Notes under the pieces: model-generated | Databases searched by the model: none | What the model was told of the DNA's origin: nothing | The model's input: only the letters and a program-made list of their open reading frames with translations | Program-made: the position numbers and the translations under genes | NCBI GenBank assembly: GCA_020052375.1 | Contig: JAGVPG010000021.1 | Span: 81,969 to 129,810, forward strand | Length of the DNA: 47,842 nucleotides | Origin: Actinomycetota bacterium | GTDB taxonomy: Bacteria > Actinomycetota > JAHEXW01 > JAGVPG01 | Direction of reading: 5' to 3' | In this document: positions 31,292-40,564 of the stretch, in pieces | Numbering within the stretch: position 1 is the stretch's first letter | How the letters are laid out: every line of letters starts with the position of its first letter

Positions 31292-32035
31292 TTATACTGC
31301 CTCCTCCACTGTCTGTTTATCCTCGTTTTGCTTTGTCTCTTCGGCCTTCGGATGAGCTGCCCTTCCCTCCACCACCGCGTCCGCTATCGTCTTTGTGATC
31401 AAAGTGACCGCTCTGATAGCGTCGTCGTTGCCGGGGATCAGGTAATCCACTTCATCCGGGTCTGCGTTCGTATCGACTACCGCGATTATCGGGATCTTCA
31501 AGTTACGCGCCTCGCGTACGGCGATGTCTTCCTTGCGGCTGTCTATGACAAATATGGCGTCCGGTACACGCGTCATCTTCTTCAGTCCGCCGATACTTAT
31601 CTCGAGTTTTTGTTTCTCGCGCTTAAGCTTGAGGATCATCTTCTTTGTCTCGCCTGCCCACGAGTCCTGCTCTTCCATCTTCTCGAGCATCTCGAGACGT
31701 TTCAACCGCTCCTTGATTGTTGCGAAGTTTGTCAGAGTACCGCCGAGCCAGCGCTGATTTACATACGGCATCTCGCATCTTTCCGCGTTTTCTTTGATTG
31801 CTTCCTGAGCTTGTTTCTTTGTGCCTATAAAGAGGATCATGCCGCCGCGCGTGGAAATGTCCTGCACGAAGTGATATGAAGCTTCAACAAAGGCGAGTGT
31901 CTTTTCGAGGTCTATTATGTGGATACCGTTTCTTTCCGTGAATACGTACTTCTTCATCTTCGGATTCCAGCGCCTTGTCTGGTGTCCGAAATGGACTCCC
32001 GCCTCTAGGAGACTTTTCATTGTGATAATAGCCAA
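31292..32035 (-). CDS. rpsB: 30S ribosomal protein S2
   Basis: S2 is a late-binding small subunit protein. [29 protein letters not shown] and [19 protein letters not shown] are conserved family segments. The 247 residues end in an acidic tail. Translation starts at TTG (32033-32035), with an ATG five codons later as an alternative. GGAGGTG lies 11-12 nt upstream of the TTG. It is the first gene after the candidate promoter at 32103-32132 and heads the rpsB-to-proS block. Confidence 0.96.
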
Positions 32036-32102
32036 AAGTCCTATAACACCTCCTCTCTTATCTTGATCGGATCCTAAAAGGTCAAATACACACCAAATTT
32101 AA

Positions 32103-32132
32103 AGTCTAGCACATGCCTGTTCTGCAGGGCAA
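32103..32132 (-). promoter_or_regulatory. Candidate rpsB promoter
   Basis: The minus strand shows -35 TTGCCC (32127-32132), an 18-nt spacer ending in TGTGC, and -10 TAGACT (32103-32108). It begins 1-2 nt after the sigma gene stop and leaves about 60 nt of leader before rpsB. The layout parallels the nusA promoter candidate. Confidence 0.68.
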
Positions 32133-32133
32133 G

Positions 32134-32955
32134 TTATACAAACTGTTTTAGTTTAGCTCTGAGCTGCAGGATGGCCTTCGTATGCATCTGGGAAACACGG
32201 GATTCGGTGACGCCTAACACCTCTCCGATCTCTTTAAGCGTCAAGCCTTCATAATAATAGAGAGCTATCACTGTCTTCTCTCTCTCTGGCAAACGGTCTA
32301 TCGCCTGGGCCAGAAGCGTTTTCATCTCCTCGAACTCGAACGTCGCAGCCGGTTCCGCGGAAGTCCCGTCTTCTATGACGTCGATCAATCCCACACGGCC
32401 TTCCATGTCTTTACCTACGCTGAAGGTATCTTCAAGCGCGACGACTGCGGTATTTCCGATCTGCTTGATAGTATCGTGTAACTTGTCGATACTTATCCCT
32501 AGCTCGGAAGCCACCTCTTCATCGGTAGCCGTACGTTTTAATCTCGACTCCAGCGCGGCATAAGTCCGCTCCAGTTCTTTAGCTTTTGACCTGACTGACC
32601 GGGGTATCCAATCGAGAGCTCGCAACTCATCTATTATCGCTCCCTTGATGCGCGCGATGGCATACGTCTCGAACTTTATGTTCTTCGATAGATCGAACTT
32701 TTCGATAGCGTCTATAAGGCCGAATATCCCGCAGCTCACAAGGTCTGCGTGTTCGACATTGGAAGGCACCTTAACATAAACGCGGCCGGCTACGTATTTG
32801 ACGAGCGGAGCGTAGTTAAGGATCAGCTTGTCCCTTAACTGCTGGTCCCCGCTTTTCTTATATTCGCGCCAGATATCCATAACGGAGGCTTCTCGCGCCA
32901 GTTCCTCTTCGCTTTTCACTTTTTCCGTAAACTGTTTTTTCTTATCTTCCATCAT
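32134..32955 (-). CDS. RNA polymerase sigma factor, FliA/WhiG type
   Basis: This 273-residue sigma-70 group 3 factor has region 2 ([22 protein letters not shown], in part, through [15 protein letters not shown] and [22 protein letters not shown]), region 3 ([17 protein letters not shown]) and region 4 ([23 protein letters not shown]). In Streptomyces WhiG, near rpsB, controls sporulation; FliA elsewhere controls flagella. No flagellar or sporulation genes are in the window, so the target regulon is open. The ATG has only a weak AAGTGA ribosome-binding site, and a TATACT -10-like hexamer lies 14 nt before it, so the mRNA could be nearly leaderless. Confidence 0.92.
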
Positions 32956-32968
32956 TTATCACTTTGTT

Positions 32969-32974
32969 AGTATA
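32969..32974 (-). promoter_or_regulatory. Possible -10 element before the sigma factor gene
   Basis: The minus strand has TATACT, one base from consensus, 14 nt upstream of the ATG at 32955. No good -35 is visible at 16-18 nt. An 8-nt stretch GCTGATTA nearby weakly resembles the FliA -10 (GCCGATAA), but without a properly spaced -35. Confidence 0.35.
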
Positions 32975-32997
32975 CTTTAATAATCAGCAGCTTCATA

Positions 32998-33021
32998 GAG
33001 CTTAAACTGCAGTTTAAGCTC
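32998..33021. promoter_or_regulatory. 24-bp perfect palindrome between xerC and the sigma gene
   Basis: The sequence is GAGCTTAAACTG followed directly by its reverse complement, with no spacer. It overlaps the xerC stop codon (33014-33016) and lies about 24 bp upstream of the -10-like hexamer of the sigma gene. It could be an operator or a hairpin at the end of the thi-xerC transcript. No T-tract follows on the minus strand. Confidence 0.6.
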
Positions 33022-33901
33022 TCGGATGGGCTTTCCTGTGTATCTGTTTCAAGCGGGTGCTTTCGAGATGAGTGTAGACCTGCGTTGTCGATAAGTCCTC
33101 ATGTCCGAGCAGTTCCTGGATGGTCCTTAGATCGGCACCTTCTTCAAGCATATGTGTGGCAAAAGAATGACGCATCATGTGTGGGCTCGATCGTCCTTTT
33201 ACCCCAGCTTTCAAACCTATTTTATCCAACATCATCTGCACCGATCTTACCGATAAGCGATGACCGTCTTTGTTCAGGAAAAGGGCCTCCGTCTCATGTT
33301 CGCGTACAAGGCAGGGTCTGGCGGCATCAAGGTAATGGCGAAGAGTCTTTACAGCGATGTCCGTCAAGAAGACGACGCGTTCTTTATCTCCCTTTCCGAT
33401 CACTCTTGCTTCGCCTTCTTTAAGATCAAGATCCCGTATGTCCAGGCCGACGACCTCGCTTACCCTTAACCCGGCAGCATACATGATCTCAAGAATCGCC
33501 AGATCGCGCAGACCTCGCATAGTTGAAGTATCGGGTATGTCAAGCATCCCCTCGGTCTCATCCCGGCTGAAGATCTTGGGGAGCGTCTTATCCTTTTTAG
33601 GAAGTACTACCAGCAAAACAGGGTTTTGTGTTATCAAGCCCTCTCTTTTTAGATATGTGAAGAACGTCCTGATGGATGATATATGTCTGGATATTGTCGA
33701 TTTGGAGAGTCCTTTTTTAGACAGATGAGAAACATACTTACGGATAGTCTTATAGCAGGTGTTTTCGAGGTCTTCTATGCCTTCTTCTTTAAGGAATGAG
33801 AGTAGGTCTTCGACGTCGCGCCTATATGCTCTGACCGTATAGGCGGACAGGTTTCTCTGACAGGTTATGTGATCGATGAACCTATTGATGTCATGTTCCA
33901 T
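33014..33901 (-). CDS. xerC: Tyrosine recombinase XerC/XerD
   Basis: Xer recombinases resolve chromosome dimers at dif. The 295-residue protein has the N-terminal SAM-like core-binding domain (about 1-90). The catalytic domain has R146, K170, H241, R244, H267 and the nucleophile Y276, all in their motifs (AAGLRVSE, HMMRHSFATH, LGHEDLSTTQVYTH). I cannot tell XerC from XerD without comparison; the symbol follows the actinobacterial xerC-whiG-rpsB context. It is the last gene of the apparent thiM-to-xerC unit, 8 nt after the RNase HI fusion gene. Confidence 0.93.
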   Translation of the reverse strand: MEHDINRFIDHITCQRNLSAYTVRAYRRDVEDLLSFLKEEGIEDLENTCYKTIRKYVSHLSKKGLSKSTISRHISSIRTFFTYLKREGLITQNPVLLVVLPKKDKTLPKIFSRDETEGMLDIPDTSTMRGLRDLAILEIMYAAGLRVSEVVGLDIRDLDLKEGEARVIGKGDKERVVFLTDIAVKTLRHYLDAARPCLVREHETEALFLNKDGHRLSVRSVQMMLDKIGLKAGVKGRSSPHMMRHSFATHMLEEGADLRTIQELLGHEDLSTTQVYTHLESTRLKQIHRKAHPRA

Positions 33902-33909
33902 GATCCGCC

Positions 33910-35145
33910 TTAACTTGTCATAAGATGAAGACGCATTCCGACGTATAGTCCGAGCTTATCAGCCGCGCTGCCCATATTTATGGCGATGCTTAAAAAACCG
34001 GACGAGTCTATAAGCATGACCGGTTCTCCGGGAGACACATCACCGAAGGTCCTCTTGAAAGATATATCTTCTGTACGCGACGAAAGGATCAGCCCCGATT
34101 TTTTGTCGATCTCAAGTCCGATCTTCCCCGCATCATGCGACTGGATGTTCAATCTTGCGGTGCCGAACCTGTCTACGTCTATGACCTCCGCTTCCCATCC
34201 CTGTGAGGACATCCTGGCATCACCCCATGGTCCGGGAGTCAAGGTGCCTGTGTCGATTGCTTCACCGAACTCGTCGAGACCTATACCTTTTGTTATATGG
34301 GCTGAGACAGGCGCGAATACATCTCTCGCGTTGAATGTCGCCAGTCCTTCATCAAGTATATAAGCTGGATTGCTTATGGAGACCGCCTTGTCCACGCCGC
34401 CGTCTCTTTCAGCCGCAGGCAATAAGAGGCCGTTATCCGGCCCTACGAACAAGCTTCCATTGACCGTCCTGATTATCACAGGCCTTCTCTGTCCACCGAC
34501 ACCGGGATCGACAACCGCCATATGCGCCGCAGCCTTTACGTATTGCACCGCTGTAGCCAGGACAAAGGCTCCTTTCCGTATGTCGAATACGGGTATATCG
34601 TGCGCGATATCGATGATATCGGCATCCGGATTGATGTCTTTTATGACAGCCTTGCATATACCCGTCCAACCGTCACCTTGTCCGAAATCGCTGATAAAAG
34701 TGATCCGGTTAGAATGGACGGTCTTTTTTCTCGATCCTCCCGTTCGTTTTTCCTTAATGGCCTCGCAAGCTAGGCCATCCGCTGTTTTGTTCTTTGCTCG
34801 CGGGATATGTGTTATCGACGTATCGTTAAAGCTCTCCATAAGCTGACGTGCTTCTTTTTTCAGTCCGGCCAGATTCTCGCTTTTGACTTTATATTCGCCC
34901 TTCATCTGTTTGACAAGCAGTTCGCTATCGGAGAACACTTCAATATCCAAGGCACCCAGCCCAACTAGTTCGTTAAGGCCTTTTATAAGCGCCTGATATT
35001 CGGCTATGTTGTTTGTGGCTTCACCGATAGCCTGGCTGTATGTCTTGACCTCCTCGCCGTTCTTGATTATCACGCCACCGATGCCCGCAGGGCCTGGATT
35101 TCCGGAAGCCGCCCCATCGATATATAAAGTGAACTTATCAGTCAT
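33910..35145 (-). CDS. Fusion protein: RNase HI domain plus SAM hydroxide adenosyltransferase (DUF62) domain
   Basis: From the ATG at 35143-35145 (ATGA overlap with the zinc-ribbon gene) the product has 411 residues. Residues 1-130 are an RNase HI-like domain with the acidic residues D10, E49, D73 and D123 in DGAASGNPG, NNIAEYQAL, FSDSELLVKQ and NKTADGLA. A basic linker (about 131-146) leads to a DUF62 domain with SDFGQGDGW, AVVDPGVG (D213, R220) and GPDNG. Characterised DUF62 enzymes hydrolyse SAM to adenosine and methionine using an Asp-Arg-His triad. The expected His position is Asn272 here (TFNARD instead of TFHGRD). The frame is continuous, so this is a true fusion. The actinobacterial Rv2228c-type protein fuses the same RNase HI to a phosphatase instead. 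Confidence 0.93.
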   Translation of the reverse strand: MTDKFTLYIDGAASGNPGPAGIGGVIIKNGEEVKTYSQAIGEATNNIAEYQALIKGLNELVGLGALDIEVFSDSELLVKQMKGEYKVKSENLAGLKKEARQLMESFNDTSITHIPRAKNKTADGLACEAIKEKRTGGSRKKTVHSNRITFISDFGQGDGWTGICKAVIKDINPDADIIDIAHDIPVFDIRKGAFVLATAVQYVKAAAHMAVVDPGVGGQRRPVIIRTVNGSLFVGPDNGLLLPAAERDGGVDKAVSISNPAYILDEGLATFNARDVFAPVSAHITKGIGLDEFGEAIDTGTLTPGPWGDARMSSQGWEAEVIDVDRFGTARLNIQSHDAGKIGLEIDKKSGLILSSRTEDISFKRTFGDVSPGEPVMLIDSSGFLSIAINMGSAADKLGLYVGMRLHLMTS

Positions 35146-35843
35146 TTCTCCACCAATATCCTTTTGCAGTGTTCGCAACGCCATACCTCGTCTTCGTATG
35201 TCATCTTGTCGGCTTCCTCCGTAGAAATCGCCAGGTTGCATCCCTGGCATATCCCCTCTTTGACAATCGCTACCGCGATCCCCTTCTTGCTTTTTCTCAA
35301 CTTGTCATACAGGCTTAGGATATCATCCTTGATATCCTTCCGGACCTGTGATATCTCAAGCTCTTTTTCTTCCAGCCGGCTTTGCACATCTTTAGTCTTA
35401 TTCTCAAGTCCGATACGCAGCTTTTCAGACCGATCGCTCGATTCAGCCTCCGTAGACTTAAGCTCCTTAAGCTTACTGTCAAGCGGATCCAGCTTCTCAA
35501 GCTCCAATAGATAATCCGTCTCTTCTTTGTCTCTTTCTTTGCGTAACGAGTCGATCTCCTGCTGAATCGACATAAGTTCTTTCGAATTCGTCGTCCTACC
35601 GTCGTATAGTTTTGATTCCTCTTTCTTCATTTTCTCCTCGAGAAGGCCTATCTGCCCTTCGAGCTTCTTTACGATCTTCGTCTGTTCCTCATCATCTTTC
35701 AAGACTTTGGTCAGTTCGGACTGAAGTTCTGATAGGTTGTTCAGTTCTGCTTCGTATGTTTCTTTCTCAGGTAGTGATTCAAGTTCCGTTCTTAGTCTGT
35801 CAGCTATTAGATCCAGATCTTGCAGCTTTGTAAGTTGTTCCAT
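35142..35843 (-). CDS. Coiled-coil protein with C4 zinc ribbon (Rv2229c-like)
   Basis: This 233-residue protein is a long charged coiled coil (about residues 1-185, Glu/Lys/Leu heptads) ending in a zinc ribbon with C199, C202, C223 and C226 (CQGC and CEHC). Such C4-type zinc-ribbon proteins lie next to RNase HI genes in Actinobacteria and Firmicutes, and are thought to bind nucleic acid or act as assembly factors, without a settled role. The start lies 44 bp inside thiD, so it is translationally linked to the thiamine genes. It ends in an ATGA overlap with the fusion gene. Confidence 0.9.
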   Translation of the reverse strand: MEQLTKLQDLDLIADRLRTELESLPEKETYEAELNNLSELQSELTKVLKDDEEQTKIVKKLEGQIGLLEEKMKKEESKLYDGRTTNSKELMSIQQEIDSLRKERDKEETDYLLELEKLDPLDSKLKELKSTEAESSDRSEKLRIGLENKTKDVQSRLEEKELEISQVRKDIKDDILSLYDKLRKSKKGIAVAIVKEGICQGCNLAISTEEADKMTYEDEVWRCEHCKRILVEK

Positions 35844-36633
35844 GTGCTTGGGGGTTCCTTCTTCCTATCTGTCGCGCCGCTTGTATGGCTTCCTGTGTAT
35901 AAACTATCGCTTTATCAGCCGCTTCCACAACATCATAACCGAGGGCAATGTTAGCGGTCAAAGCCGATGCCAGCGTGCATCCTGTTCCCCGCATGCTTTT
36001 CCCATCCAGATAAGCATGCTTGAACATATGTATTGCCGCGCCGCTAAAGAGCGCATCGGTAAATCGATCCTCTTCAAGGCGCACGCCTTTTATCAATACG
36101 TGGTCTGCTCCCAATCCACCTATATAAGTCAGAGCCTTTTCAAGGTCATCTTGTGTCGCGATCCTGAACCCGCACAGTCTCTCCGCTTCCTCAACATTGG
36201 GTGTGATCAGTGATGCTTTTTTTATCATACACTGCTTGATGAATTCTATCAGGGGTTCATCCGCCAGAGGACTACCGCTCGATGATGAAAAAACCGGGTC
36301 TAGAGTCACGAACATCTCGCTTCCGTCCAATATGTCCGCTATTATCTCAGCATTTTTCTTGTTGCCGAGGACTCCGATTTTACAGGCGGCGTACTCATAG
36401 TCTTCAAAAAGCGTTTCGGTTTGGTATCTCAACATCTCCGGCGGTACCGGGAAAGCACATCTTATGTATTCGCTGTTCTGAGCGGTCAAGACAGTAACAA
36501 CGCCAGACGCATATAGACCGTGATCGTTAATCGTTGAGATATCCCGCAGCAACCCCGCACCTGCGCTGGGATCGTAACCTGCAATGACCAGAACGTTGCG
36601 GGTGTTCTTATTCTTATCTTTTGAAGTGGTCAT
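35800..36633 (-). CDS. thiD: Hydroxymethylpyrimidine/phosphomethylpyrimidine kinase
   Basis: ThiD phosphorylates HMP and HMP-P to HMP-PP for thiamine synthesis. VIAGYDPSAGAGLLRDI opens the ribokinase-like fold. VTVLTAQNS, LITPNVEEAERL, GADHVLIKG and RGTGCTLASALTANIALG follow in order. I use the ATG at 36631-36633; a TTG two codons upstream is also possible. It overlaps thiL by 20 bp and the zinc-ribbon gene by 44 bp. Together with ThiC it supplies the pyrimidine half of TPP. Confidence 0.95.
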   Translation of the reverse strand: MTTSKDKNKNTRNVLVIAGYDPSAGAGLLRDISTINDHGLYASGVVTVLTAQNSEYIRCAFPVPPEMLRYQTETLFEDYEYAACKIGVLGNKKNAEIIADILDGSEMFVTLDPVFSSSSGSPLADEPLIEFIKQCMIKKASLITPNVEEAERLCGFRIATQDDLEKALTYIGGLGADHVLIKGVRLEEDRFTDALFSGAAIHMFKHAYLDGKSMRGTGCTLASALTANIALGYDVVEAADKAIVYTQEAIQAARQIGRRNPQAHGTTYKAARSGSNS

Positions 36634-37627
36634 ATCCAAGATCCGTTATTTGGGATACCCTGCCATCTACGCCGGATATCACACACCCTTTATCCCTATC
36701 CAAGATCATCCCGATCTCCGATAACTCAACGACTTCGTTTTGATTAGCACGCTTCTCATACTCCGCGATAAGACCTTCCGGGCCGGTACAGATGAGCTCG
36801 TAGTCCTCTCCTCCGTATAGAGCAAGTTCAAGAGGTTTCTTTCCGCTGACAGCCAAGGATTTCTTAAGGACATCGATATCGATCGGGATAAGCTCCTCTT
36901 GGAGCATGAATCCGACCCGGCTTTCCTCGGCGATATGCATGAGGTCTGTTATCAATCCGTCGCTTATATCTTCCATGGAAGTGGCTCCCGCCCGGGCAAG
37001 CATCCGTCCCTCTTCAACCCGCGCCGGAGGTCTTAAGTGGCGCTTTATCAGACGTTCGACAGCATCCGGGTACGGCATCGATCCTGCTTTCAATGCTGTA
37101 AGGCCTAATCCGGATGCCCCCAGGGACCCTGTAGCATATATCCGATCTCCCGGTCTGGCCGTAGAACGCTTCGTGATCATATCCGGTTCGACATCTCCGA
37201 TGATCGTAACGTCTATGAAAAGGTTGCGAGATCTTGAAGTGTCACCACCGATGATCTGAAGATCGAATCGAGCTCCGGCTTCTATCATTCCTTCGTATAT
37301 CGAGTCGATGAAACTGTATTCCATGTTTCCGGGTATCCCCAAAGAGATCACGGCATATCTTGGCAAGCCCGCCATGGCCGCGATATCGCTTACATTTACG
37401 GCCATCGATTTATAGCCCAGGTCCCGGCCGTCTATCGTACCGGATACGAAGTGGACATCGTCGACAAGGACGTCGGTCGTGACAAGAGTCGTTTTTTCCG
37501 TCGACTTAAACGCCGCCGCGTCGTCTCCGATCCCGCATATGACGTTGCTTTTCAGGCTCGATCCTTTAAGGATCTTTTTTCTGATCCTATCTATTAGTCC
37601 TTTCTCTCCGAGCTCGCCGATCAACAT
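36614..37627 (-). CDS. thiL: Thiamine-monophosphate kinase
   Basis: ThiL converts thiamine phosphate to thiamine diphosphate with ATP. The N-terminus has IGDDAAAF, then TTDVLVDDVHF with metal-binding aspartates, KSMAVNVSDIAAMAG and QIIGGDTSRS. The C-terminal half has MEDISDGLITDL and LYGGEDYEL. The frame stays open upstream, but the ATG at 37625-37627, overlapping the thiC end by 7 bp, gives the conserved start LIGELGEKGLI. The 337-residue length is typical. It acts after ThiE. Confidence 0.95.
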   Translation of the reverse strand: MLIGELGEKGLIDRIRKKILKGSSLKSNVICGIGDDAAAFKSTEKTTLVTTDVLVDDVHFVSGTIDGRDLGYKSMAVNVSDIAAMAGLPRYAVISLGIPGNMEYSFIDSIYEGMIEAGARFDLQIIGGDTSRSRNLFIDVTIIGDVEPDMITKRSTARPGDRIYATGSLGASGLGLTALKAGSMPYPDAVERLIKRHLRPPARVEEGRMLARAGATSMEDISDGLITDLMHIAEESRVGFMLQEELIPIDIDVLKKSLAVSGKKPLELALYGGEDYELICTGPEGLIAEYEKRANQNEVVELSEIGMILDRDKGCVISGVDGRVSQITDLGYDHFKR

Positions 37628-38922
37628 CTCATATCTTCCTCCGCCCCAAGATGCTCGGAGACGATCTTCATTGCGCAAAACTCTCCGCACATCGTGCATG
37701 CGTCTTTATCGGAAAGGTGGCGTCTGTCAAACATCCTACGTGCCGTATCGGAGTCTATCGCCTGTTCTATCTGTGTCTCCCAATCCAGCGCCTTCCTGGC
37801 GACCGACATACGGCGGTCCCACTCTTTGGCGCCCGGGATCCCTTTTACGATATCCGCCGCGTGAGCCGCTATCCTAGACGCTATCACACCCCTCTTGACA
37901 TCATCCGCGGAAGGTAGGCCAAGATGCTCGCGCGGTGTCACATAACAAAGAAAATCGGCGCCATGTACCGCCGCTAAAGCTCCTCCTATTGCGGCGGTTA
38001 TCTCGTCGTACCCCGGCGCAACGTCCGTCACTAGTGGTCCCAGCACGTAGAAAGGAGCGCCTTTACATAGCTTCTTCTGCATCTTTACCTGTTCCTCTAT
38101 TTGATCCAGCGGGACATGTCCGGGCCCTTCGATCATGACCTGTACATCCCTCTCCTTAGCGGCTTCCGCTAAGACGCTGAGTGTTCTTAGCTCTTCCATC
38201 TGGGCCTCATCACCCGCATCCGCCCCGCATCCAGGCCTCATCCCGTCACCAAGGCTCAATGTCACGTCATATGTTTCGGCTATATCAAGAAGCCTGTCAA
38301 ACTCACTGAAAAGCGGGTTCTCCCGATCGTTATGCAGCATCCAGGCCGTCAGAAAGGCGCCGCCTCGGCTCACTACATCAGTCACACGTTTTTGAGTCCG
38401 CAGCGACTCTATCGCTTTTCTTGTAACGCCACAGTGGACGGTTATAAAGTCGACACCGTCCGCACACTGGTCCTCGATTGCTTCGAACATGTCATCAGCG
38501 GACATGTCGACGATATTCCCTTTAGTCTCGATCGCCCAAGCCGCGGCCTGGTAGATCGGAACCGTTCCGACTGGGACACCGGCGACTTCGAGAATGGCTT
38601 TTCTGACTGACGTGATATCGCCTCCTACCGATAGGTCCATAACGGTGTCGGCACCGCTATCGATCGCTATACGGCACTTGTTTACTTCTTCCTCGACAGA
38701 TGGATACGCGTTTGAAGTGCCGATATTCGCGTTTATCTTGGTCCGCAATCCTCTGCCTACAGCAACAGGTCTAGCAGTAGCGCGTATCTCGTTTTTAAGC
38801 AGCACTGTATATCCATCAGCGATATCCCTGGCCAGCACCTCCGGCTGCACACCTTCTATTGCCGCGGTTTCCTCTATCGACTCCGGTATAACACCCTGTC
38901 TAAGTTCTTCCTTAATGCCCAC
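37621..38922 (-). CDS. thiC: Phosphomethylpyrimidine synthase (ThiC), short form
   Basis: ThiC is a radical-SAM enzyme that rearranges aminoimidazole ribotide into HMP-P. The 433-residue protein is the short form lacking the N-terminal extension. It has the AYPSVEEEV, MDLSVGGD, DFITVHCGV, SLGDGMRPGC and EGPGHVPLDQI segments, and ends with the cluster cysteines C409, C412 and C416 (CTMCGEFC). The last spacing is X3 rather than the textbook X4. The GTG start at 38920-38922 has GGAGGAG nearby inside the thiE end. It is TPP-riboswitch controlled by position. Confidence 0.95.
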   Translation of the reverse strand: MGIKEELRQGVIPESIEETAAIEGVQPEVLARDIADGYTVLLKNEIRATARPVAVGRGLRTKINANIGTSNAYPSVEEEVNKCRIAIDSGADTVMDLSVGGDITSVRKAILEVAGVPVGTVPIYQAAAWAIETKGNIVDMSADDMFEAIEDQCADGVDFITVHCGVTRKAIESLRTQKRVTDVVSRGGAFLTAWMLHNDRENPLFSEFDRLLDIAETYDVTLSLGDGMRPGCGADAGDEAQMEELRTLSVLAEAAKERDVQVMIEGPGHVPLDQIEEQVKMQKKLCKGAPFYVLGPLVTDVAPGYDEITAAIGGALAAVHGADFLCYVTPREHLGLPSADDVKRGVIASRIAAHAADIVKGIPGAKEWDRRMSVARKALDWETQIEQAIDSDTARRMFDRRHLSDKDACTMCGEFCAMKIVSEHLGAEEDMRC

Positions 38923-39544
38923 ATCTCCTCCATATGTCCGACAGCCTCCGAGTCGCTCCGACCATATCTTCAGCGCCCGCGACCTCTTTGATCACGGCGG
39001 CTCCGTTAACGCCCGCATCGATGACGGTCTTCAGGTTGCTTTCCGTGATGCCTCCTACGGCTACTATGGGGACGTCAGCGATATCGACTATTTCCTTTAG
39101 TATATCGGTTCCTAACGGTGACGCGGCGTCCTTCTTGCTGTCAGTCGGAAACACCGGTCCTACTCCCATATATGATGGCCCCAGTGCCCTGGCTTTTACC
39201 GCTTGAGAGAGGTCTGAGACAGAAAGCCCCAGACACATGCCGTCCGGGATCAGGCCTTTTACCCGGTCGATCGGCATATCATCCTGACCTATGTGTATCC
39301 CGTCAGCGGCGGTCTTTATGGCTATATCGACTCTATCGTTTACGATAAAGGCCACCCCGGCGTCAGCAGTAATCGATCTGATCCTTTCGGCAGTTTTTAA
39401 GAAAGCGTCCGGAGACATGTGTTTATCTCGCATCTGTATGACGGTCGCTCCGCCAATTATCGCCGCTTCGGCTACTTCTTCATGGCTTTTACCGAAAGAG
39501 GCATCCGTTATTATATATATCCTAAGATCGATATCAGTCGTCAA
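38912..39544 (-). CDS. thiE: Thiamine-phosphate synthase
   Basis: ThiE joins HMP-PP and thiazole phosphate to thiamine phosphate. This 210-residue TIM barrel shows YIITD at the first strand, VIQMRDKHMS, FIVNDRVDIA, GIHIGQDDMP and GVGPVFPT, with VAVGGITESN near the end. The TTG start at 39542-39544 lies 4 nt after the thiM stop, with GGGG within that stop region as the possible ribosome-binding site. It overlaps thiC by 11 bp. Confidence 0.94.
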   Translation of the reverse strand: MTTDIDLRIYIITDASFGKSHEEVAEAAIIGGATVIQMRDKHMSPDAFLKTAERIRSITADAGVAFIVNDRVDIAIKTAADGIHIGQDDMPIDRVKGLIPDGMCLGLSVSDLSQAVKARALGPSYMGVGPVFPTDSKKDAASPLGTDILKEIVDIADVPIVAVGGITESNLKTVIDAGVNGAAVIKEVAGAEDMVGATRRLSDIWRRCGH

Positions 39545-39548
39545 TCGT

Positions 39549-40367
39549 CTAGACCCCGGTCATCGAGACCAGTTTTACTTTCTCTTTTACCTGTGTCGCA
39601 TCAAGCCGGGCCACCTCGTCATATAACGTGGCGTGGAAGCTGCCGGGGTGCCCTCCTGTCTTTGCCGCGGCGTTCTCGCCCGCAATCCCGAAACAGGCTA
39701 GAGCTCCAGCCGCCGCGACCAAGTGGTCCTTTTCAACCGCCGAGAAGACCGCCAGCGCTGTTGTCGCCATACATCCTGTCCCGGTCACGCCGCCTAAAGC
39801 AGGCGTTCCGTTGCTTACTATGATCGTCTCCGAACCATCTATTACATGGTCGTCTTTACCCGTTATGGCGACGACGCAACCATAATAGCTCGATAGCCGG
39901 TGTCCGTTCTCAAGCATCCCTTCAGGCGGCTCCATAGACTCGACCCCCTTGATCTGCGCTTCCGCTCCCGCAAGTGTGGCGATCTCTGCCGCGTTGCCCC
40001 GGATGACGCTGACCTTAACAGCATCCAGGATCTCTTTTGCGGATTCTGTCCGGTATCTAGTTGCACCTGCACCGACCGGATCCAGGACTACAGGAGTTCC
40101 GAGTTCGTTCGCTTTCTTCCCGGCTTTAAGCATCGATTCTATCCAGTACGGATCGAGAGTGCCGATGTTCAAGACCAGCGCGCCGGCCATCGCTACCATT
40201 TCCTCGACCTCTTCATGAGCATGAGCCATAACCGGCAGAGCTCCCAAGCTTAACGTAAGATTGGCCGTCTCATTCATCACCACATAGTTGGTGATATGAT
40301 GCACGAGAGGTTTTGTTTCCCTGACTTTCTGCAGGTCTTCGGCTATTCTTTCAATCAGTTCATTCAT
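39549..40367 (-). CDS. thiM: Hydroxyethylthiazole kinase
   Basis: ThiM phosphorylates the thiazole alcohol, a salvage activity. The 272-residue protein has VHHITNYVVMNETAN, ALPVMAHA, LDPVGAGATRYR, IRGNAAEI and TGTGCMATTALAVF segments. The ATG at 40365-40367 follows AAAGGGG by 7 nt; an upstream in-frame start would fall inside the terminator region. It is the first gene after the TPP riboswitch. No thiG, thiS or thiF is visible, so in this window the thiazole half comes from salvage only. Confidence 0.95.
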   Translation of the reverse strand: MNELIERIAEDLQKVRETKPLVHHITNYVVMNETANLTLSLGALPVMAHAHEEVEEMVAMAGALVLNIGTLDPYWIESMLKAGKKANELGTPVVLDPVGAGATRYRTESAKEILDAVKVSVIRGNAAEIATLAGAEAQIKGVESMEPPEGMLENGHRLSSYYGCVVAITGKDDHVIDGSETIIVSNGTPALGGVTGTGCMATTALAVFSAVEKDHLVAAAGALACFGIAGENAAAKTGGHPGSFHATLYDEVARLDATQVKEKVKLVSMTGV

Positions 40368-40393
40368 AGTTACGCCCCTTTCTATTATCAAGT

Positions 40394-40431
40394 AAAAAAA
40401 GCCGTTTCCAGAGAAGGAAAGCGGCTTTTTT
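40394..40431 (-). terminator. Rho-independent terminator of the TPP riboswitch
   Basis: On the minus strand AAAAAAGCCG, a bulged C and TTTCC pair with GGAAA and CGGCTTTTTT around a TTCTCT loop, followed by a T run. It lies between the aptamer and the thiM start, so TPP binding should favour premature termination. Confidence 0.85.
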
Positions 40432-40442
40432 CTCTGACTTAT

Positions 40443-40541
40443 ATTCTTCCTCCGCTGGAATTACCCAGTTCAGGTTCTAACGGTCGTCCGGTTTAAGCCG
40501 GACCTCTCAGCCGCCAAGTCTATAAGCGGCTCCCGCTTTTT
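40443..40541 (-). ncRNA. TPP (THI-box) riboswitch
   Basis: The minus strand carries the conserved TPP aptamer elements in order. These are CTGAGA (40505-40510), a P3 hairpin GTCCGG-CTTAAA-CCGGAC, and CCTGAACTGGGTAATTCCAG with GCGGAGGAAG (40446-40474) closing P4, P5 and P1. It is directly upstream of the intrinsic terminator and thiM, the standard arrangement for transcriptional control of thiamine genes. All five thi genes and possibly the three following genes would be regulated. Confidence 0.95.
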
Positions 40542-40564
40542 GATCTTACACCTATCTTACCACA

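Follow-up and report, generated by a model that had tools for sequence, protein, structure and literature searches.

Proteins of the DUF62 family hydrolyse S-adenosylmethionine (SAM) and are trimers; StDUF62 prefers the (R,S) epimer of the substrate, and the physiological role of the family is disputed (PMC12120602). The residue His 127 of the archaeal protein PH0463 is one of three in the described water-activating triad (PMC10491745, PMC4859513), and according to a review the His, Arg and Asp of this triad are strictly conserved throughout the DUF62 family (PMC10491745). RNase HI is known to be joined to a small-molecule enzyme of another kind, the acid phosphatase CobC. In Rv2228c this second domain raises the RNase activity in vitro, and for MSMEG_4305 of Mycobacterium smegmatis functional dissociation of the RNase HI and CobC domains in vivo has been reported; Rv2229c is listed as being of unknown function (PMC7466739). 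No paper naming RNase HI, SAM hydrolase and their fusion together was found in the open-licence literature. The gene described here, which lies in a 47,842-nucleotide stretch of an Actinomycetota genome (the window), joins RNase HI to DUF62; both enzyme families are known, but their combination is new and specific to one class. We favour, with a probability of roughly 0.6, the reading that its product is a bifunctional housekeeping protein of one deep Actinomycetota class in which both halves are active.

Translation of the gene gave one open frame from ATG to TAA with no internal stop (Table 1), and a Pfam search of both halves agreed with the earlier note that an RNase HI domain and a full DUF62 domain share an unbroken frame. 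A variant of the frame reaching 35250 gains merely an in-frame upstream ATG within the preceding zinc-ribbon gene. All four Pfam matches exceeded the curated cut-offs, with RVT_3 covering residues 10–128 (E 1.9e-23) and RNase_H residues 4–129 (E 1.5e-11) ahead of SAM_HAT_N and SAM_HAT_C. The N-terminal half thus has an RVT_3 domain scoring above the cut-off together with the four acidic catalytic residues that had been picked out from the sequence, D10, E49, D73 and D123, which were invariant in an alignment of 18 RNase HI sequences. The C-terminal half combines both SAM_HAT domains with the Asp and Arg of the triad. The equivalence of D213, R220 and N272 to the triad, originally argued from spacing, proved exact when the protein was aligned with a PH0463 construct that begins SHM (phmmer alignments were also made): the three residues fall on positions 70, 77 and 129 of the construct, which are native D68, R75 and H127, and the codon at N272 is indeed AAC. 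The linkers of the three fused proteins that we compared (see below) contain 6–7 Lys or Arg and one Asp or Glu within 17–21 residues. In an AlphaFold2 model the RNase HI half had a pLDDT of about 94, and SAM_HAT_N, which was covered by three alignment rows, was mostly below 50 and thus unreliably modelled.

Table 1. Features of the fused gene and its neighbours (window coordinates).
Feature	Position	Strand	Basis or remark
rpsB	31292..32035	-	TIGR01011 above cut-off; same place in L056/L057
whiG/fliA-type sigma factor gene, next downstream after xerC/D	32134..32955	-	NF004935 above cut-off; same place in L056/L057
xerC/D-type recombinase gene, directly downstream of fusion	33014..33901	-	TIGR02224 above cut-off; same place in L056/L057
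Fused CDS, RNase HI :: SAM hydroxide adenosyltransferase (DUF62)	33910..35145	-	411 aa; also in L002/L056, L003/L057
SAM_HAT_C (DUF62 C-terminal domain), residues 319–405	33931..34191	-	PF20257, E 1.5e-19
SAM_HAT_N (DUF62 N-terminal domain), residues 148–294	34264..34704	-	PF01887, E 2.3e-45
N272 (codon AAC), equivalent of PH0463 H127	34330..34332	-	alignment with PH0463
R220, equivalent of PH0463 R75	34486..34488	-	alignment with PH0463
D213, equivalent of PH0463 D68	34507..34509	-	alignment with PH0463
Lys/Arg-rich interdomain linker, residues 133–146	34708..34749	-	sequence
RNase HI domain, residues 4–132	34750..35136	-	Pfam RVT_3/RNase_H
D123, RNase HI acidic residue	34777..34779	-	
D73, RNase HI acidic residue	34927..34929	-	
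E49, RNase HI acidic residue	34999..35001	-	
D10, RNase HI acidic residue	35116..35118	-	
C4 zinc-ribbon/coiled-coil gene (CdsZ/Rv2229c-like)	35142..35843	-	Pfam CT398_CC and Zn_ribbon_9
thiD (HMP-P kinase)	35800..36639	-	TIGR00097 above cut-off
thiL (thiamine-phosphate kinase)	36614..37699	-	TIGR01379 above cut-off; true start probably downstream of listed one
thiC (radical SAM phosphomethylpyrimidine synthase)	37621..38922	-	NF009895/TIGR00190 above cut-off
thiE	38912..39544	-	TIGR00693 above cut-off
thiM	39549..40391	-	TIGR00694 above cut-off
TPP riboswitch heading operon	40429..40546	-	RF00059, 57.1 bits (gathering score 54.3)

The same fusion was present in both of the other genomes examined from the class to which the window belongs, a deep Actinomycetota lineage (3/3). 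These two are public MAGs (JANXYU010000019.1 and JAHEXW010000010.1), and their fused proteins are 44–46% identical to that of the window in alignments over residues 4–405 of 411. The earlier note had allowed for an assembly error joining two genes. All three genomes (G000, G001 and G002) are drafts of 1.3–1.6 Mb, and the Asn codon is a single base away from CAC, so that one might suspect a false join or a miscalled codon; however, the fusion occurs at the same place and in the same gene order in two independently assembled genomes, which rules out the join, the codon call being a separate matter. Taken as a whole, an artefact of assembly or sequencing is scarcely credible. No further fusion was found among the matches listed for about 394 other Actinomycetota genomes (397 sampled), nor among those listed for 148, 150 and 119 genomes from the phyla of a Deltaproteobacteria, a Bacillota and a Planctomycetota MAG (phyla as judged from the titles of the central loci; the lists ended before the weakest matches), nor among the matches in 72,556 plasmid records. 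The contig pattern scan drew its patterns from the RNase HI half alone and could pass over fusions in which RNase HI has diverged.

The fused gene is the sole source of both an RVT_3-type RNase HI and a DUF62 protein in all three genomes, and RNase HII is encoded separately in each. Comparison of G002 with G001 gave dN/dS values of 0.05 for the RNase HI half (0.067/1.29) and 0.10 for the DUF62 half (0.147/1.47), figures that are rough because they come from a counting method with dS above 1, and that apply to the sister genus, the window lineage being too distant for such an estimate. Both halves are under purifying selection in that genus. Gene order, thiM-thiE-thiC-thiL-thiD-fusion-xerC-whiG-rpsB, is common to the window and locus L056, and L057 shares it from thiD onward, which favours a single fusion event. 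Trees of the separate halves neither prove nor reject one event: for the DUF62 half a single clade of the three fusions was not rejected (AU p 0.18), and for the RNase HI half the tree constrained to a single fusion clade had the better likelihood, by 9.2 log units (p 0.715).

Why the halves were joined is a separate question from whether they work, and here a neutral explanation, in which two unrelated housekeeping genes that had become neighbours fused when a stop codon was lost and stayed functionally uncoupled, does not conflict with activity of both halves. Several observations fit it. The operon also houses the unrelated genes xerC, whiG and rpsB; conservation is poor in the linker, where the sister species are 58% identical, as against 78–89% in the domains; and the domains of MSMEG_4305 offer a precedent for functional dissociation in M. 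smegmatis (PMC7466739). On the other hand, all three genomes have retained the fusion, in proteins about 45% identical, and it is therefore old. We consider the odds on a neutral origin to be about even.

The most conspicuous feature of the DUF62 half is the Asn at the position of the triad His. Among fused proteins this residue is particular to the window lineage, a single genome, since the corresponding motif in both fused relatives is TFHARD. When the column was examined in 163 DUF62 domains, a non-random set in that the loci had been picked up through their similarity to the window protein and came mostly from Actinomycetota, it contained 128 His, 13 Gln, 9 Asp, 6 Ala, 5 Glu and 2 Asn. Thirty-five domains therefore have a residue other than His, unfused proteins among them (26 of 92 for unfused Actinomycetota DUF62), and the second Asn was found in an unfused protein (L037, motif TFNGRD). 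On a DUF62 tree built without this column, His and non-His forms interchanged at least 13 times. By contrast with this variable column, D213 and R220 were each matched by the same residue in 137 of 138 aligned domains, the remaining one being a gap, and the equivalents of D237, N238, R274 and D275 were present in every domain with letters there. The window protein keeps all of these, and D153, H182 and D325 as well. No replacement His for H127 was seen in the alignment of DUF62 domains.

As judged from these alignments, strict conservation of the triad His is contradicted by the 163-domain sample; the His does not define the Pfam family, as 35 of its sampled members, like the window protein, do without it. 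A residue other than His at this place is ordinary for DUF62, and N272 does not show that the enzyme is inactive. The proposal made in the earlier note that the DUF62 half, with its Asn, might be inactive or have altered chemistry is consequently unsupported, given a variable H127 column, the replacement of His in 35 of 163 domains, a site otherwise kept, and D213 and R220 invariant wherever they could be aligned. The earlier note had named as a refuting condition that DUF62 proteins with Asn at this place be common and active; this was borne out in part, in that non-His residues in general are common and Asn itself is rare (2/163). We also noted that a His at the place of window H208 (PH0463 H63) is absent from most Asp and Ala forms and present in most Gln and Asn forms, a pattern that may reflect two DUF62 subtypes.

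Two explanations in which the substitution has functional consequences were weighed. In the first, the change from His to Asn would have abolished or nearly abolished SAM hydrolysis, leaving the DUF62 half as a trimeric scaffold or as a SAM- or adenosine-binding regulator of RNase HI. The place of H127 in the water-activating triad (PMC10491745, PMC4859513), the retention of His by both fused relatives and the stimulation of RNase by the second domain of Rv2228c (PMC7466739) are all in keeping with this. However, His has been replaced repeatedly across the sample with no decay of D213, R220 and the other conserved residues, a purely structural domain would be expected to shed its SAM-site residues over such divergence, and the fusion carries the only DUF62 of the genome. 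Loss of activity is on these grounds unlikely. In the second explanation, DUF62 subtypes with Asn, Gln, Asp, Glu or Ala at this position, the window protein included, would use another nucleophile or substrate. Recurrent change in the His column and the frequent joint loss of H208 in the Asp and Ala forms would suit such altered chemistry, as would the case of the chlorinase SalL, which belongs to the same fold family, has a different chemistry and is likewise without His at the H127 position. The residues of SalL at the triad places are Tyr, Thr and Tyr, whereas the window protein keeps both Asp and Arg, which points to water activation, so that it resembles a hydrolase more closely than a halogenase. 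As the sister fused proteins moreover carry the full triad, we regard altered chemistry as quite improbable.

The fused gene belongs to a same-strand run (31292–40546, minus strand) in which a TPP-riboswitch thiamine operon leads into xerC, whiG and rpsB, with several overlapping frames. The thiamine operon with a radical-SAM ThiC that had been recognised from the sequence was confirmed, and the riboswitch can be added to it; that of L056 fell below the Rfam threshold but matched along the entire model (E 1.4e-7). Outside the class, DUF62 was seen linked to thi genes once among about 50 unfused Actinomycetota loci: in a genome of another family (G275) an unfused DUF62 gene closes a TPP riboswitch-thiM-thiE-thiC-thiD cluster (L144:5473-10375). 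In other Actinomycetota families DUF62 genes were found near riboflavin genes (L139:5375-11863, also L136 and L137); at L139 an FMN riboswitch lies upstream, ribBA and ribH are near the DUF62 gene and gltX is close by.

Directly upstream of the fusion, with a 4-base overlap, is the zinc-ribbon gene, which separates it from thiD in the window alone among the three fused genomes; it was not found in G001 or G002. In most unfused relatives, from many phyla, the zinc-ribbon gene stands directly upstream of RNase HI, so the pairing proposed in the earlier note is a recurrent one. Pairs of a CT398/CdsZ-like zinc-ribbon gene with an RVT_3 RNase HI gene (loci L058-L135, L199-L224 and L269-L278) came from records titled Actinomycetota, Deltaproteobacteria, Omnitrophota, Elusimicrobia, Bacillota and others. 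Rv2229c, which we take to be the zinc-ribbon gene upstream of Rv2228c, would be the parallel to the window gene. The likely history, as we infer it, is that a zinc-ribbon/RNase HI pair came between thiD and a DUF62 gene, and that the stop codon of the RNase HI gene was then lost.

If the protein is bifunctional with both halves active, the N-terminal half, as the only RVT_3-type RNase HI of the organism, would cut RNA in RNA/DNA hybrids by means of a metal site formed by D10, E49, D73 and D123. The C-terminal half, its only DUF62, would split SAM into adenosine and methionine, using water held by D213 and R220; by analogy with described enzymes the substrate would chiefly be the (R,S) epimer, and N272 would probably shift rate or selectivity more than abolish catalysis. 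Because DUF62 enzymes are trimeric, the fused protein would display three RNase HI domains, held on short basic tethers around the DUF62 trimer. Both activities, the trimerisation and any benefit to ThiC are what we infer for this protein. Inhibition of ThiC, a radical SAM enzyme, by AdoMet metabolites has been reported (Palmer and Downs 2013, as cited in PMC8102628), and we speculate that the DUF62 half might clear SAM by-products near ThiC and that the basic linker and trimeric partner might help such an RNase HI to grip its substrate. A bolder idea, which we rate as very improbable, is that the three tethered RNase HI domains are controlled by SAM or adenosine bound to the trimeric DUF62 core; removal of RNA/DNA hybrids would then follow SAM state, and His/Asn variation would tune turnover against sensing.

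The variation at the triad His suggests that roughly one in five of the sampled DUF62 proteins can dispense with this residue or replace it. Fluorinases and chlorinases are thought to have arisen from this family, and the variation has a bearing on its mechanism. A small hint as to what DUF62 does in the cell, a matter still unsettled, comes from its link to TPP-riboswitch operons. Compared with PH0463 and StDUF62 (PF01887 and PF20257), the window protein likewise has both Pfam domains at full length and keeps the equivalents of D68, R75 and the other conserved residues; it differs in being fused behind RNase HI and in having Asn for H127. Against the NCBIfam equivalogs for (R)-SAM hydrolases the DUF62 half scored 185.8 bits (NF058624, cut-off 350) and 128.5 (NF053629, cut-off 470), and consequently the substrate epimer was not assigned.

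The stand-alone RVT_3 RNase HI proteins of many phyla contain the same module as the fusion (about 40–55% identity) with the same zinc-ribbon neighbour, but are unfused, and that neighbour is missing from two of the three fused genomes. The RNase HI half resembles the RNase domain of Rv2228c, as the earlier note had it: NF005567 matched residues 4–142 with 128.8 bits, below its full-length cut-off of 326. Rv2228c, MSMEG_4305 and SCO2299 also consist of an N-terminal RNase HI, a linker and a small-molecule enzyme, but their C-terminal partner is a phosphatase where that of the window fusion is DUF62, and their vitamin link is to B12 rather than B1. With DUF62, an RNase HI module whose fusion to a phosphatase was already known gains a second partner among small-molecule enzymes. 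As every examined genome of the class has kept this fusion, the question why RNase HI is joined to metabolic enzymes becomes testable by comparison.
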